Part shown: positions 16,396 through 21,757 of the stretch, one piece after another | Numbering within the stretch: position 1 is the stretch's first letter | Layout of the letters: each line of letters opens with the position of its first letter | IMG/VR virus record: IMGVR_UViG_3300022591_000779 | Location: 1 to 25,676 of that record | Strand: one strand, 5' to 3' | DNA: 25,676 nucleotides | Source of the DNA: a virus | Program-made: the position numbers and the translations under genes | Notes under the pieces: model-generated | Databases searched by the model: none | What the model saw: the letters and a program-made list of their open reading frames with translations, nothing else | Told to the model about the DNA's origin: nothing

Positions 16396-17460
16396 TCACG
16401 GGCTGTTCGAGGAGTTCTCGAGCGCCAGGTGGATGCGGTAGTTGTCGCCGGTGGCGGGGATGGTCGGCGCGGCGCCGGCCAGGAACGCCATCACCCAGCC
16501 CGGCGGCATCACGCTGTACACGTCCACGGTGTTGGCCGCGCTCGTGACGATCAGCTCGGCCGTCTGCGAGTGGCTGCAAATCTGCCAGCCGGGCTCGGTG
16601 GTGCTGAAGCCGACGCAGGCGCCCGCATTGTACGCCGTGATCGGCAGGTTGTTGAGCGCGACGCAGCCGCCGTTTGTGGTGCCGTCCGCGACCGAGCCGG
16701 CCGCGGCCTGGTTGATCAGGTTGGCGAACGCCGTCGCGCTGTCCGCGTTGATCGTGCCGCCCGTGCCGACCACCCACTGGCTGTCCACCGGGCTCCCAGC
16801 GTTGGTGAGCGCGGTCAGGGTCAGGTAGGCGTACTTCACCGTGTACGTGCATGGCGTGGTGGCCTCGGCGACCCCGTTCGCGTTGGTGTACGCGATGGCC
16901 CCAGTCGACGCCGTGACCCCGGTGATCGGGAACGTCCCATTGTTGGCGGCATTCGTGGCCCCGGTGATCACGATGTTCTGTCCGACACAGCCCGCCTGCG
17001 CGAGCCTGGTCGTCCCCGAGGTCAGCGTCATGGACGGAGCGGTACCGCTGATGGCGTCGCTTGAACTGCACGTCCCGGAGGCGCTGAACCCAGCGGGCCG
17101 GATCAGCCGGATGTAGTGCGTGTTGGCCGGCGAGGTCATCAGGATCGCCGCGACCCCGCCGCCCGCCGCATGCGCCGGGAGCCAGAAGTTGTCGCACGCC
17201 GGCGCCTGCTTGATCTTGGTCAAGTAGCCGTCGATCGTTCGCACGTACTGATCCTCGAGCCCGAGCACGTAGACCTCGCCGCCCGCTGCCGCCGCGGCGC
17301 TGTCCTTGACGTGCGTGAAGCTCAGGATCCCCTGGTTGTGCGAGGCGTCCTTGACCAGCGCGACCGCCGCGCCGTTCGTCGTGATCGCCACCTCGGCCTG
17401 AAGATCCCACGGCATGCTCGCAAGCGAAAAACGCCTGCTGTTAGCAAAACGCTGACTCAC
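16396..17460 (-). CDS. Cys-rich virion protein following the capsid gene
   Basis: A 354-residue protein starting at GTG 17460, with GGAAGG placed to serve it; an internal ATG at 17415 (MPWDLQAEV) is a weaker alternative. Residues 15-110 look globular (LQAEVAITTNGAAVALVKDA, then a KQAPACDNFWLPAHAAGGG segment). From about 125 the chain is beta-rich and Gly/Thr/Asn/Ala-rich with seven cysteines (for example GTCSSS, AGCVGQ, NGGCVAL, GACVGF). Around 165-185 is an Ig-like signature (NIVITGATNAANNGTFPITG) and at about 240-258 a helix seen in phage beta modules (INADSATAFANLINQAA). There is no signal peptide. As the first gene after the major capsid protein it may be a head-decoration, head-fibre or minor capsid protein. 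I do not recognise the family with certainty. Confidence 0.65.
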   Translation of the reverse strand: MSQRFANSRRFSLASMPWDLQAEVAITTNGAAVALVKDASHNQGILSFTHVKDSAAAAAGGEVYVLGLEDQYVRTIDGYLTKIKQAPACDNFWLPAHAAGGGVAAILMTSPANTHYIRLIRPAGFSASGTCSSSDAISGTAPSMTLTSGTTRLAQAGCVGQNIVITGATNAANNGTFPITGVTASTGAIAYTNANGVAEATTPCTYTVKYAYLTLTALTNAGSPVDSQWVVGTGGTINADSATAFANLINQAAAGSVADGTTNGGCVALNNLPITAYNAGACVGFSTTEPGWQICSHSQTAELIVTSAANTVDVYSVMPPGWVMAFLAGAAPTIPATGDNYRIHLALENSSNSP

Positions 17461-17571
17461 GGTACACCTTCCTTTTCAGTCTGCGAATCGGATCTATATA
17501 TGTGCCTATCGCAGGTTCATGAGAGCGAAATTGCCCTCAGGTCTTGCCGTGCAGACGGAGATGCTCTGCGG
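17461..17571 (-). promoter_or_regulatory. Post-capsid gap with two hairpins and an AT-rich box
   Basis: This 111-bp gap separates the capsid stop from the next start. On the transcribed strand it holds a hairpin right after the capsid stop (arms GCAGA / TCTGC plus a CC/GG base) and a second with arms TGAGGGC / GCTCTCA around a 6-nt loop. Closer to the next gene is the only clearly AT-rich patch here (ACATATATAGAT, -10-like), then the GGAAGG ribosome site. Neither hairpin has a T-run, so a classical terminator is not supported. A promoter or mRNA-processing site is possible but unproven. Confidence 0.3.
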
Positions 17572-18819
17572 TCAATACGCGAGACTCGCGCAGCCGAAGT
17601 GGACCGGCGCGTCCACGCCGATCTGGGCAAAGCAAGTGAGTCTCAACTCCACTTGGCTCGCGGTGGGCACGCGCAGGAAGGGCACGCCGTCGGCGTCGAA
17701 GACGCTCGGGGCGTCGCCGATGGAGTACAGCTTGATGTGCCCGCTGTGGATGGCGAACGCGGTGGCCGCGGGGCAGGTCCAGTCGGCGACGATCTTGATG
17801 GTGCCGCCGACGTGGCGGAAGACGATCGCCTCGCAGGAGAAGTCGAGGACGCCCGACTTGACCTCCTGGAAGTTGACGACGGCCTTCTGGGACATCTCGT
17901 TGATGAGCCCCTGGTACGAGAGCGGGTTCATGTAGACGTAGTCCGGGTGGCCGCCCACGAAGCTGATGCGGGTGAGCCAGTTGGACAGCGCCTCGGAGAT
18001 GAGCCGCTTGGACCCGTCGTAGTACGTGCCCGCGATGCGCTCGAGCATGTAGTTCGTGCGGACGATGCCCATGAACGGGGTCGCGCCGGGCGCGTTGGTC
18101 AGCCAGTCGAGCAGGCCGTACTGGAAGAGGCCGACGCCGCCCGAGACGCAGAGCTGATCGTTGACCACCCAGAGGTTGGGCGAGGCCGGGGCGCCGCCGT
18201 AGGTCGCGCCCACGGAGATGGTGCCGGCCGAGACGGAGGCGGCGACCACGAAGCCCTTGGCGGCGCGCGCATTGACGCCGTCGGGCGATGCCTGGAGCAC
18301 CTCGCCGATCTCGAAGTTCACCACGTCGGAGGCGTTGGTCAGGGTGAACACGCCGGTCGAGCCGATGCTCTGGATCGTGCCCTTGGTGCCGGTGCTGTGG
18401 CGCCAGAGCGAGAGGGCCAGCGTCTTGACCGCGCCCTCGATGGCGGTGTCGGTCGCGAACTGCACGGCCTGGATGAAGCCCTGGCGATCGTTCTTCGCGC
18501 CCTGCATCGTCTTCACGTCGATGTACGCGCTGCCGAAGATGTCGCTCGTGGTCAACATGAACTCGCCGGGGATGCCCGGAGCCGAGTTGCCCTGCGCCTC
18601 GCTGAACGTCGGCGACGCGCCGACCGCGGGGCTCGCGACGAAAGGCAGCGGGTAGGGCCGCATACCGAGGTCGGTCTTGCGGTCCAGCATCGCAAGGAAG
18701 GGGTATTCCTTCTCGAACAGCTCCTGCGGCTTCTGGCCGTCGTAGAGCTCCTTGAGAACGGTGTAGAGGGTGCCGGTGTTGGCGGTGGTGCCGGTGCCGG
18801 AGAGAGTGACGGCGGTCAT
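17572..18819 (-). CDS. Major capsid protein
   Basis: A 415-residue protein starting at ATG 18819, with GGAG as a moderate Shine-Dalgarno. Order (after portal and scaffold), size and sequence style all fit a HK97-fold major head protein. The N-terminal arm contains LYTVLKELYDGQKPQELFEK and EYPFLAMLDRKTDLG. The FVASPAVGASPTFSEAQGN stretch and the region about 85-110 (a DIFGSAYIDVKTMQGAKNDR segment) fit the E-loop and spine-helix area. An inserted beta part lies at about 145-225. A helical and strand-rich C-terminal half follows (TPFMGIVRTNYMLERIAGTY, HPDYVYMNPLSYQGLINEM, VPTASQVELRLTCFAQIG). It is preceded by a structured 166-bp gap and followed by a 111-bp gap, unlike the tight spacing elsewhere, suggesting separate control of the most abundant virion protein. 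No catalytic residues are expected. Assigned by context plus general fold features. Confidence 0.85.
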   Translation of the reverse strand: MTAVTLSGTGTTANTGTLYTVLKELYDGQKPQELFEKEYPFLAMLDRKTDLGMRPYPLPFVASPAVGASPTFSEAQGNSAPGIPGEFMLTTSDIFGSAYIDVKTMQGAKNDRQGFIQAVQFATDTAIEGAVKTLALSLWRHSTGTKGTIQSIGSTGVFTLTNASDVVNFEIGEVLQASPDGVNARAAKGFVVAASVSAGTISVGATYGGAPASPNLWVVNDQLCVSGGVGLFQYGLLDWLTNAPGATPFMGIVRTNYMLERIAGTYYDGSKRLISEALSNWLTRISFVGGHPDYVYMNPLSYQGLINEMSQKAVVNFQEVKSGVLDFSCEAIVFRHVGGTIKIVADWTCPAATAFAIHSGHIKLYSIGDAPSVFDADGVPFLRVPTASQVELRLTCFAQIGVDAPVHFGCASLAY

Positions 18820-18830
18820 GTGGGGAGGCT

Positions 18831-18928
18831 CCGTTGCTGATGCTACGCGGCTCGACTGCGCGCCGATGGCGGCAGGAGCGCTGGGTTGGAAAACGTCAAC
18901 CAGCAGGGGATCGCGTAATCAGCAACGG
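18831..18928 (-). promoter_or_regulatory. Predicted three-way-junction RNA structure before the capsid gene
   Basis: On the transcribed (minus) strand the gap between scaffold and capsid genes can fold into three helices. The closing helix pairs 18831-18849 with 18912-18928: 17 base pairs with a 2-nt bulge (CCGTTGCTGAT and TACGCG on one arm, exact complements on the other). Inside are two hairpins: 18856-18875 (CTGC and CGCC paired with GGCG and GCAG, one bulge, 3-nt loop) and 18880-18904 (GCTG and GTTG arms with one bulge, 8-nt loop). The arm nearest the capsid start ends in CAACGG next to the AG of the only Shine-Dalgarno-like GGAG, so folding could affect capsid translation. I read this directly from the sequence; no known RNA family was recognised. 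Confidence 0.5.
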
Positions 18929-18985
18929 CTTGGTTCTACGATGCTGCGTCAATCGTGCAACGGTCCGGCAGGTAATGTCAAGCGA

Positions 18986-19873
18986 TCAGGCATCCTTGCG
19001 CTCGAACGCGGCCAAGGCCCGCTTCTGGGCCGCCTCGCGGTCATAGGGCTTCTTCGGCTGGTGGCTGCCGGCGGCGGGCGCGGCGGCCGTCGAGATGGTC
19101 TTCGGTCCCTTGGCGGCAGCGGCAGGCGCAGGTTCCGGGGCGGGGGCAGCAGCCATCAGCTTCTTGCCGAACGGGCTGGACTTCGCCCTCGGCTCGAGCT
19201 TCTTCTCGAGGTACTGCGCCGCCTGCTCCCAGGTACACGGCTCGCCCGTCTCTTGGAAATACTCGGCGATGATCATGGGCACGCGCGACGCATCGCCCTC
19301 GAAGTGGTTCACGAGCGGATACTTGTCGGCCGCCGCCGCAACCTGCGCCACGGTGTCGGCCGCGAACCGCTCCCACGTCGCCTTGGCCACCTTGCGATCC
19401 TGCTCGGCCGCGAAGGCGGCCATCTTCTCGTCGAGGATCTTCGTTACCTCTGCGACAGGATCGGGCTTCACGTCCTTGCCGAGACGAGCGGCCGTGAGTT
19501 CATCGTAGGTCAGACCACCCGCGGCGAGGTAGGCGTCCGCATCGGTCTTCGCCTTCGCTCGGATCTGCTCGAACTTCTGCGCCTCGGCCAGTTTCACGTC
19601 GGCCTCGGCCTTGAGTCGTTCGACCTCCTGGCGCTGCCGGTGCAACTTCTTCTGCTCGCGCACCGCGGCAGCGAACGGATCGGAGGCCGGTGGCTTTGGC
19701 GCTTCGGCCGGCACACCCTGCTCGGTTCCGGGCTTGGCTGCCTCTTCTCCGGGCTTGGCTGCGTCTCCGGTCGGCTTCTTCGCCTCTCCCTGCTTCGCTT
19801 GCGCTGCTTCGGCTGGCGCTGCGGCTGCGGTCGGCTTCGCGGGTTCGGCGGCTGCTGGGGCTGCGACTGCCAT
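18986..19873 (-). CDS. Capsid scaffolding protein
   Basis: A 295-residue protein starting at ATG 19873; the Shine-Dalgarno AGGAGGG overlaps the portal TAG. Residues 1-65 are a disordered Ala/Pro/Lys/Glu-rich stretch. Residues 70-115 form a charged coiled coil (REQKKLHRQRQEVERLKAEA, DVKLAEAQKFEQIRAKAK). Then comes DELTAARLGKDVKPDPVAEV and a helical segment (KILDEKMAAFAAEQDRKVAK). The region about 190-235 is more globular (YPLVNHFEGDASRVPMIIAE, ETGEPCTWEQAAQYLEKKLE). The C-terminal tail is Ala/Pro-rich, then basic (KKPYDREAAQKRALAAFERK), as expected for the capsid-binding end of a scaffold. Position between portal and capsid and the helical, low-complexity make-up match podovirus scaffolds such as T7 gp9. 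Scaffold sequences diverge fast, so this rests on order and composition. Confidence 0.8.
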   Translation of the reverse strand: MAVAAPAAAEPAKPTAAAAPAEAAQAKQGEAKKPTGDAAKPGEEAAKPGTEQGVPAEAPKPPASDPFAAAVREQKKLHRQRQEVERLKAEADVKLAEAQKFEQIRAKAKTDADAYLAAGGLTYDELTAARLGKDVKPDPVAEVTKILDEKMAAFAAEQDRKVAKATWERFAADTVAQVAAAADKYPLVNHFEGDASRVPMIIAEYFQETGEPCTWEQAAQYLEKKLEPRAKSSPFGKKLMAAAPAPEPAPAAAAKGPKTISTAAAPAAGSHQPKKPYDREAAQKRALAAFERKDA

Positions 19874-19885
19874 GGTGGTGCCCTC

Positions 19886-21757
19886 CTACGCGGGTTGAGG
19901 GGTTGCGGTCGGCATCGGGAGCAGCGAAGACGTGGGCGGCTTCACGGGCACACCGAGCGGGGCAGCGGCACCGGGCGCTCCCGCCCCGGGGGCCATCGGC
20001 GGCGGCGCGGCGAGCGCGCCTTGCAGCGCCACCGCCTCGTCCATCGCCTGCCGCAGCAGCTTGATCTTCTCCTCCTCGAGCTCGCCCGCCTTCGCGCTCT
20101 GAATCTCCTTGTTCAGCATCGAGATCCACAGCGGCAAGTTGTCCTCTTTCGCGGGCGGGACATACTCACCCTCCTCGGTCATCCGCTCGATGCAGCACTC
20201 GATCCACGTCTCGTCAGCGCCGTCGCGCCGCTGGAGTGCTTCGAGGTCCGGCCGGTTGAGCATCTGTTTGCCAGTCTTCTGGTCGCACCATCCGCCCTCA
20301 ACCAGCTCGTTGACCTCTGCCAGTTGTCCTTCGGGTTCGATTGGCAGGCTGGAGCTTGGCCACGCCTGCAACTCGAACATATCCGCGGCGAAGTCGAGAT
20401 CCTTCCACTTCACGATCTGCAACCGCTTGCCGCCGATCGTGCGGACCTCGTAGTCGGTGATCTCCTTCGACTCGACCGCATGCTTGATCAACTCGATTGC
20501 CATCCGGTTGATCTCGAGGTGGAAGTCGGAGTACGCCTCGCTCAGAGTCGCGAACCGATCGTCGTTCACCTGGAGCACGGTACGAATCGCCGCCCCGCTC
20601 GCATTCGGCCCGAGGTCATTGCGCCCGCTACTCTGCATCTCGGTGATCCCCGCTTGCGCGTAGATCAACTGGAGCAACCGATCCCGCTCGGTGTAGAGCT
20701 CAGGCGCCACCGCGGGCGGCGTCATCCACGACGGCGGCGTGTGCCGGAACGGGAGGATCGGCCCGAGTTGCCCGTCCATTGCATCGGGCGCAATGGTCGA
20801 ATCCTCCTCAATGCACATCTTGAACGTTCCGCACACGCGCTGCGCGTTCGCGATCTGGATCAATACGTAGTTGAGCTGCGTCTGTAGCGACTCGAGGTTC
20901 TCCACGAGCCCGCGGCCGAAGAAACCGAGTTGCGGCTCGGAGTAGTTCAACCGCGCAAACGGGAACCACTCGAACGGCCACTTCTCGTCAACCAGCGTCG
21001 TGTCCTCTATCGTGATGACGTGGCGCCCGGGGTTCTTCGGCCCATCGGCCAGCCGGTACGAGTCCACTACCAGAATCAACTCGGCGATACTCGGCTGCGC
21101 GGTGCTCTTCCCGTCCGCCGACACGATGCCGGTCTTGAGGATGTCGTCCTTGTGGTCCGGCCAGATTGCGGCGGCAGTGCCGCGGTCAAGCGGCTGGGTG
21201 TAGTGCAGCGATCGGGGCGTACCCCAGAGCGACTCTTGTTTGTCAACCCAGAGGTTCGACTCCATCACGCGCTCGACGCGAATGCGCCAGTCCTGCATGA
21301 ACACGTGCGCGACGCCGGTGCCGGTGATAGCCGAGTCCCTCGCGCACAGTCGCCCCTTCCGCTGCACCTTCTGCTCAAGCATCAGGCCGTCGCTGAACTT
21401 GGTGAGTTGGTCGGCCACGCGGTTGAGGTGGTACGAGTTCGATCCCTTCGGCAGCCACCATGCGCGAGGCTTCACGCGGGACGCGATGCGCGCCTGGATG
21501 GTGTCCACGCACGAGCCAGTGGCGTTCACTCGCAACTGGCTCGGATCGTTCTTGGCCGTCGAGGTGTCGAGCGGAGAGAACGTGATCCCGAACGGCGTGA
21601 CCGTGGCAACGCTGCCGTAGAGCCGCATGAACCAGCAGGCGTTGCGAACCCGCTGCTCTTGGAAATGCGCGATGAGCGAAAGGCTCTGATTCACCCCCCG
21701 CGCGACCGCATGCGGATTGCCCTCTTCCCACCAGCGCGCATTGCCTTTGATGCTCAC
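19886..21757 (-). CDS. Portal (head-tail connector) protein
   Basis: A 623-residue protein starting at GTG 21757, with GAGGTGG upstream. It shows the podovirus portal pattern. An N-terminal helical part (NQSLSLIAHFQEQRVRNACW) leads into VNATGSCVDTIQARIASRVK. Residues 259-310 carry the core WPFEWFPFARLNYSEPQLGF, then FGRGLVENLESLQTQLNYVL and IANAQR. The stem and tunnel-loop area follows (ERDRLLQLIYAQAGITEMQS, SGRNDLGPNASGAAIRTVLQ). The crown region (FELQAWPSSSLPIEPEGQLA, DQKTGKQMLNRPDLEAL) ends in helices and a Pro/Ala-rich tail of about 40 residues. The portal forms the dodecameric DNA channel at one capsid vertex and docks the terminase. Its place upstream of scaffold and capsid is canonical. 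The gene is intact and of normal length. Confidence 0.9.
   Translation of the reverse strand: MSIKGNARWWEEGNPHAVARGVNQSLSLIAHFQEQRVRNACWFMRLYGSVATVTPFGITFSPLDTSTAKNDPSQLRVNATGSCVDTIQARIASRVKPRAWWLPKGSNSYHLNRVADQLTKFSDGLMLEQKVQRKGRLCARDSAITGTGVAHVFMQDWRIRVERVMESNLWVDKQESLWGTPRSLHYTQPLDRGTAAAIWPDHKDDILKTGIVSADGKSTAQPSIAELILVVDSYRLADGPKNPGRHVITIEDTTLVDEKWPFEWFPFARLNYSEPQLGFFGRGLVENLESLQTQLNYVLIQIANAQRVCGTFKMCIEEDSTIAPDAMDGQLGPILPFRHTPPSWMTPPAVAPELYTERDRLLQLIYAQAGITEMQSSGRNDLGPNASGAAIRTVLQVNDDRFATLSEAYSDFHLEINRMAIELIKHAVESKEITDYEVRTIGGKRLQIVKWKDLDFAADMFELQAWPSSSLPIEPEGQLAEVNELVEGGWCDQKTGKQMLNRPDLEALQRRDGADETWIECCIERMTEEGEYVPPAKEDNLPLWISMLNKEIQSAKAGELEEEKIKLLRQAMDEAVALQGALAAPPPMAPGAGAPGAAAPLGVPVKPPTSSLLPMPTATPQPA

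Follow-up and report, generated by a model that had tools for sequence, protein, structure and literature searches.

The gap between the putative scaffold gene and the major capsid protein gene contains a 98-nt RNA element that folds into a three-way junction, the closing helix of which ends within the capsid Shine-Dalgarno sequence. The fold is probably genuine and serves to switch or stabilise the production of capsid. The element is found in an IMG/VR virus record of 25,676 nt, the whole of which was analysed and is referred to here as the window. Coordinates of the features of the locus, and of a comparable leader in related phages, are given in Table 1.

The scaffold-capsid locus

The main genes of the window are on the minus strand, with further structural genes 3' of the capsid gene. 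The window capsid protein itself has no family match. Of the 8 aligned capsid relatives, 6 match the PHROG 'major head protein', and the terminase-portal-scaffold-capsid gene order is a second support for the capsid label. The scaffold label is putative, being based on position and on a weak similarity to the syntenic protein of the related locus L004 (IMGVR_UViG_3300046701_000008). An AlphaFold model of the capsid protein has a pLDDT of 41 and was left unused.

The final 109 nt of the gap are made up of the element together with the capsid ribosome-binding site (RBS). In a preliminary description of this DNA the element had been placed between the scaffold and capsid genes, and its position, strand, coordinates and length are exact. 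Most other gene junctions had been described as a few bases long. This is the case for the main genes, where the junctions are mostly 12 nt or less or the genes overlap, but it does not extend to the junction between the capsid and the next gene (17571-17461, minus strand), which is long at 111 nt and has a structure that is not unusual (z -1.3).

Table 1. Features of the window and of the clade E leaders.
Feature	Position	Strand	Evidence
Terminase large subunit	25607-23190	-	
Portal	21757-19886	-	
Putative scaffold gene, 295 aa	18986..19873	-	Position between portal and capsid; weak match to syntenic L004 ORF
Scaffold-capsid intergenic gap, 166 nt	18820..18985	-	ORF ends and starts; fold
Lead-in, 57 nt, weakly structured	18985-18929	-	Fold
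Three-way-junction RNA, 98 nt	18831..18928	-	Minimum free energy (MFE) against shuffles; strand-wide window scan
Closing helix 5' arm, CCGUUGCUGAU+UACGCG, 17 bp	18912..18928	-	MFE and centroid; RBS-upstream duplex p = 0.01 (1,000 shuffles)
Hairpin 1, GCUGGUUG-ACGUUUUC-CAACCCAGC, 8 bp, one bulge	18880..18904	-	Fold
Hairpin 2, GCUC-CUGC-CGCC-AUC-GGCG-C-GCAG-UC-GAGC, 12 bp, two bulges	18850..18879	-	Fold
Closing helix 3' arm, CGCGUA-(GC bulge)-AUCAGCAACGG	18831..18849	-	Fold
Capsid Shine-Dalgarno GGAG; first two G are the closing-helix end	18829..18832	-	Sequence; partition function
Major capsid protein gene, 415 aa	17572..18819	-	Relatives match PHROG major head protein; capsid alignment
Clade E leader RNA, ~130 nt	L299 1880-2006; L306 1869-2000; L313 1872-2000; L314 1872-2000; L317 1859-1994		Compensatory changes

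Structure of the element

The three-armed fold is thermodynamically real. In the comparison with shuffled controls that had been proposed for it, the 98-nt element has an MFE of -51.6 kcal/mol against a dinucleotide-shuffle mean of -29.4 +/- 3.1 (z -7.2, 0 of 200 shuffles), and the whole 166-nt gap has an MFE of -61.0 (z -3.6, again 0 of 200). Positions 18831-18930 rank first for over-stability among 1,022 overlapping 100-nt windows of the minus strand. The opposite strand of the element also folds and is less over-stable (z -5.0).

The closing helix, of 17 bp and with a bulge of 2 nt, is exactly as first described. The enclosed arms had been given as two 8-bp bulged hairpins, which is correct for hairpin 1, with its single bulge, but not for hairpin 2, in which the pairs are arranged as 4+4+4 bp separated by bulges of 1 and 2 nt. 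The structure does not have the form of an intrinsic terminator, a GC-rich hairpin with a run of U after it; the helix is followed by AGCCUCCCCAC and a terminator scan finds none on the same strand.

Overlap and pairing with the capsid ribosome-binding site

The statement that the last arm abuts the capsid Shine-Dalgarno slightly understates the contact, since the last two bases of the helix are the GG of the GGAG (18832-18829) that sits 9 nt before the ATG at 18819. In partition function calculations these two bases have an unpaired probability of 0.01 or less in every context that holds the helix, while the A is open and the pairing of the last G varies with context. Judged by the pairing of its bases in the ensemble, the Shine-Dalgarno is sequestered in part, through GG only. 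Leaders that sequester the Shine-Dalgarno, such as translational operators, thermometers and riboswitch expression platforms, likewise place a long-range helix onto part of the RBS. The window element differs from these in the restriction of its pairing to GG and in its lack of an Rfam match, and no ligand, protein or temperature response is known for it.

Pairing between the RBS and the upstream part of the gap was assessed in 52 long-gap leaders. The 27 nt ahead of the start codon were matched with the part of the gap lying more than 45 nt upstream, and the best duplex was compared with those obtained from 1,000 dinucleotide shuffles of that part. The duplex of the window leader has a p value of 0.010. 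Calling of leaders and start codons was automatic in this test, which had itself been prompted by viewing some of the same folds. Of the 52 leaders, 16 reach p <= 0.05 and 20 reach p <= 0.1, where 5 are expected (binomial 5e-8). There is no excess in short-gap relatives (6 of 57 at p <= 0.1), in which the upstream sequence is scaffold coding sequence, and control segments inside the capsid coding region give 6 and 3 out of 52. When one leader is drawn per capsid clade, ~6.6 of 17 have p <= 0.1 compared to 1.7 expected. The absence of an excess in the controls, together with the per-clade draw, indicates that the pairing is specific to the RBS and goes beyond shared ancestry alone. An earlier partition-function test of long-range Shine-Dalgarno pairing gave little excess, with 7 of 43 long gaps against 3 of 67 at p <= 0.1.

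Searches for families and homologues

Rfam 15 has no match in the window and none in 18700-19100 at E <= 5, which agrees with the earlier remark that no described RNA family has this layout. The tRNA scan produced nothing usable. No described capsid leader of this kind was found in the literature, and the capsid is absent from the main text of two large structured-RNA surveys (PMC2864571, PMC8040213).

No close homologue was found in scans of IMG/VR, isolate phages and prokaryotes represented by one genome per species. In the isolate phages neither the DNA nor the capsid protein was matched, and the capsids of the relatives were also without a match. Genome-contig scans by capsid recovered no relative, and IMG/VR scans by portal and adaptor found nothing. 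The nearest relative by terminase is L004, at 64% over the exteins, the capsid of which is only ~35% identical. Identity to the remaining capsid relatives does not exceed 39%, and in the capsid tree the window forms a long branch, with a length of 2.6.

Scaffold-capsid gaps in relatives

Gaps were extracted from 233 loci, giving 144 distinct gaps. The median length is 46 nt, and 59 gaps are at least 75 nt, many of these in clades with conserved leaders. Many relatives have a gap of less than 60 nt without such a leader, which counts against a leader function for the window element. Taken together, the long gaps have only a slight excess of stability over coding sequence (p 0.04).

The leaders of clades A and E appear to be structured-RNA families absent from Rfam. 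In the GC-rich clade A (14 sequences) the leader has two hairpins with 94.3% of cells paired, 11 out of 15 pairs changed on both sides and a covariation score of 0.419 against 0.185 when shuffled, while the sliding controls collapse. Clade E (n = 5: L299, L306, L313, L314 and L317) has a 5' hairpin with the loop AUACC and exchanged stems. A closing helix follows, GUUAUCC/GGAUAAC; the capsid Shine-Dalgarno is part of this helix, and two hairpins lie inside it. In this clade 94.8% of cells are paired and 8 out of 20 pairs are compensated, with sliding controls at 45% or less; the comparison with sliding controls somewhat favours the structures of both clades because these were derived from the same sequences. 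The compensation is mostly in the hairpins of clade E, the closing helix itself having one compensated pair. Further upstream, the clade E gap (to ~230 nt) holds another hairpin. A helix closing onto the capsid RBS is also present, in unrelated sequences, in L316, L304, L253, L224/L235, L240, L230 and L212.

Other long gaps contain repeated or conserved features. Those of clade C (L194, L200, L210, L217, L220 and L234) are 185-210 nt; in several of the leaders GAUAGUUAC-type loops recur in two hairpins (one with exchanged stems) and a small hairpin holds the capsid Shine-Dalgarno. The gaps of L177, L179 and L185 share a conserved element, GTCC..CTGAGTATGAGATCAG..GAAAACAGG, in which both sides of a four-base stem change, from CTGA/TCAG to TCGA/TCGA. 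In L025, on the same contig as L254 and L318, the ORF just before the capsid resembles by eye an HNH-type endonuclease. This suggests that mobile genes, too, insert at the junction.

The window element resembles the clade leaders in topology and position. The clade E leader lies at the same position and its closing helix, which includes the Shine-Dalgarno and surrounds two hairpins, has the topology of the window, yet it is AT-richer, has the additional 5' hairpin and shows no match to the window by sequence or model. Covariance models built from the clade E leader (R1) and the clade A leader (R2) both recover their own members. With filters off, R1 leaves the window gap unmatched and makes two chance-level matches elsewhere, and R2 has no match at 18820-18985. 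The window element can therefore not be filed as a member of either family, and shared descent is unproven. R1 also has a weak match at the capsid leader of L193 (18.8 bits, E 0.15).

At the same junction, the L004 leader has an 8-bp closing helix around two hairpins, with the Shine-Dalgarno as its 3' arm. It differs from that of the window in being a 66-nt structure with other junction spacings and no alignable sequence, and its fold has a z of only -1.5 to -3.3, such a layout being found in ~9% of its shuffles. That the window leader belongs, after strong divergence, to a superfamily of capsid-leader RNAs is an unlikely extension of these likenesses. Such a superfamily, absent from Rfam and belonging to a large group of uncultivated phages, would close a helix on the capsid RBS and be read by a phage assembly protein, tuning capsid synthesis to the state of the scaffold or of assembly.

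Proposed role of the element

With moderate confidence, the element is interpreted as a structured leader that acts in cis on the capsid cistron and either gates or stabilises its translation. Such a role in capsid expression had been suggested previously; the overlap with the Shine-Dalgarno and the RBS-pairing leaders of relatives favour it, but it is unproven, with no close homologue found and neither R1 nor R2 matching the window. The stable fold, the overlap and the repeated occurrence of RBS-closing leaders in relatives are shown by the calculations; the effect on translation, its trigger and the role in stability are what we infer. The leader RNA would be made within a late polycistronic mRNA. 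When the helix is closed, the capsid start would be half-occluded and capsid translation would be separated from the ribosomes finishing the scaffold. Opening or trimming of the helix by a bound phage protein, by a double-strand nuclease such as RNase III or by breathing may then permit more capsid initiation. The same fold would probably also protect the 5' side of the capsid message. Related phages reach this arrangement by other sequences. Phages need capsid and scaffold in set proportions, and post-transcriptional setting of this ratio is rarely known in DNA phages. A recurring leader that closes onto the start of the capsid gene would provide a compact control point, and would be of wider interest if the leaders across this group of phages turn out to form a single family of regulatory RNAs.

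The near-perfect 17-bp helix with its stacked hairpins could also be primarily an mRNA processing or stability element, either an RNase III-type cut site or a 5' protective cap, with control of initiation being secondary. The gap directly precedes the most highly needed product, and no sigma70-type promoter was found in 17400-20000, which would mean that the capsid message comes from a longer transcript. Phage T7 makes stable mRNA via RNase III sites around its late genes, and the interval from its scaffold gene (gene 9) to its capsid gene (gene 10) is likewise structured in front of the capsid RBS. The likeness to T7 is one of location and of a possible role in late-gene expression and stability. 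The T7 gene 10 leader has its own promoter, a small stem-loop and an open Shine-Dalgarno, whereas in the window the Shine-Dalgarno is overlapped by a three-way junction of 98 nt, and a promoter was not recognised. Processing or stability alone would leave the RBS-specific upstream pairing of the relatives unexplained, and as the main function it is a possibility of rather low probability.

Inverted repeats fold on both strands, as is the case here, and a DNA-level feature (a mobile-element relic or a recombination or packaging site) or a chance inverted repeat would account for this. It is improbable, given that the transcribed strand is the more over-stable one and that relatives show RNA-type compensatory changes at the same junction. 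The isolate phages are without a match, and a mobile element was rejected, the record having a single copy with no target duplication seen. Somewhat more improbable is a protein-binding operator, at which the capsid, scaffold or another late protein would bind for autogenous control of the capsid. The GAUAGUUAC loop repeated in two hairpins in clade C would fit such an operator, as would the hairpins with AGUUAC/AGUGAC loops and changing stems in clades C and E, L193, L232, L245 and L253 (GGUAAC), but a hairpin of this type was not found in the window gap. The helix removes 98 of the 166 nt between the scaffold stop and the capsid start, and might by bringing these together aid the restart of terminating ribosomes. 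The 57-nt lead-in is still left after the scaffold stop, however, and pairing of the Shine-Dalgarno GG should hinder restart, so that this role is very improbable.

Other features of the window

The terminase large subunit contains, at residues ~180-470, an in-frame intein with a LAGLIDADG homing endonuclease (Pfam Intein_splicing, Hom_end and LAGLIDADG_3). It is inserted before TRWHPDD and is missing from the aligned relatives. Two genes past the capsid is a small ORF (16381-16142, minus strand, start approximate) with the sequence MGKLSDEMKKHVPSLMIAVGHNAPGEPP...ILDAEPHSEGPHD. Identity to loci of clade A and its neighbours is 45-64% over the C-terminal 40 aa, which are better conserved than the capsid. 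A long interrupted hairpin at 16200-16060 on the minus strand extends over a gene boundary, from the last part of the first gene into the beginning of the second. AGGAGG is present in its loop region, and its z is -1.8 over 141 nt and -4.6 in one 100-nt scan window.
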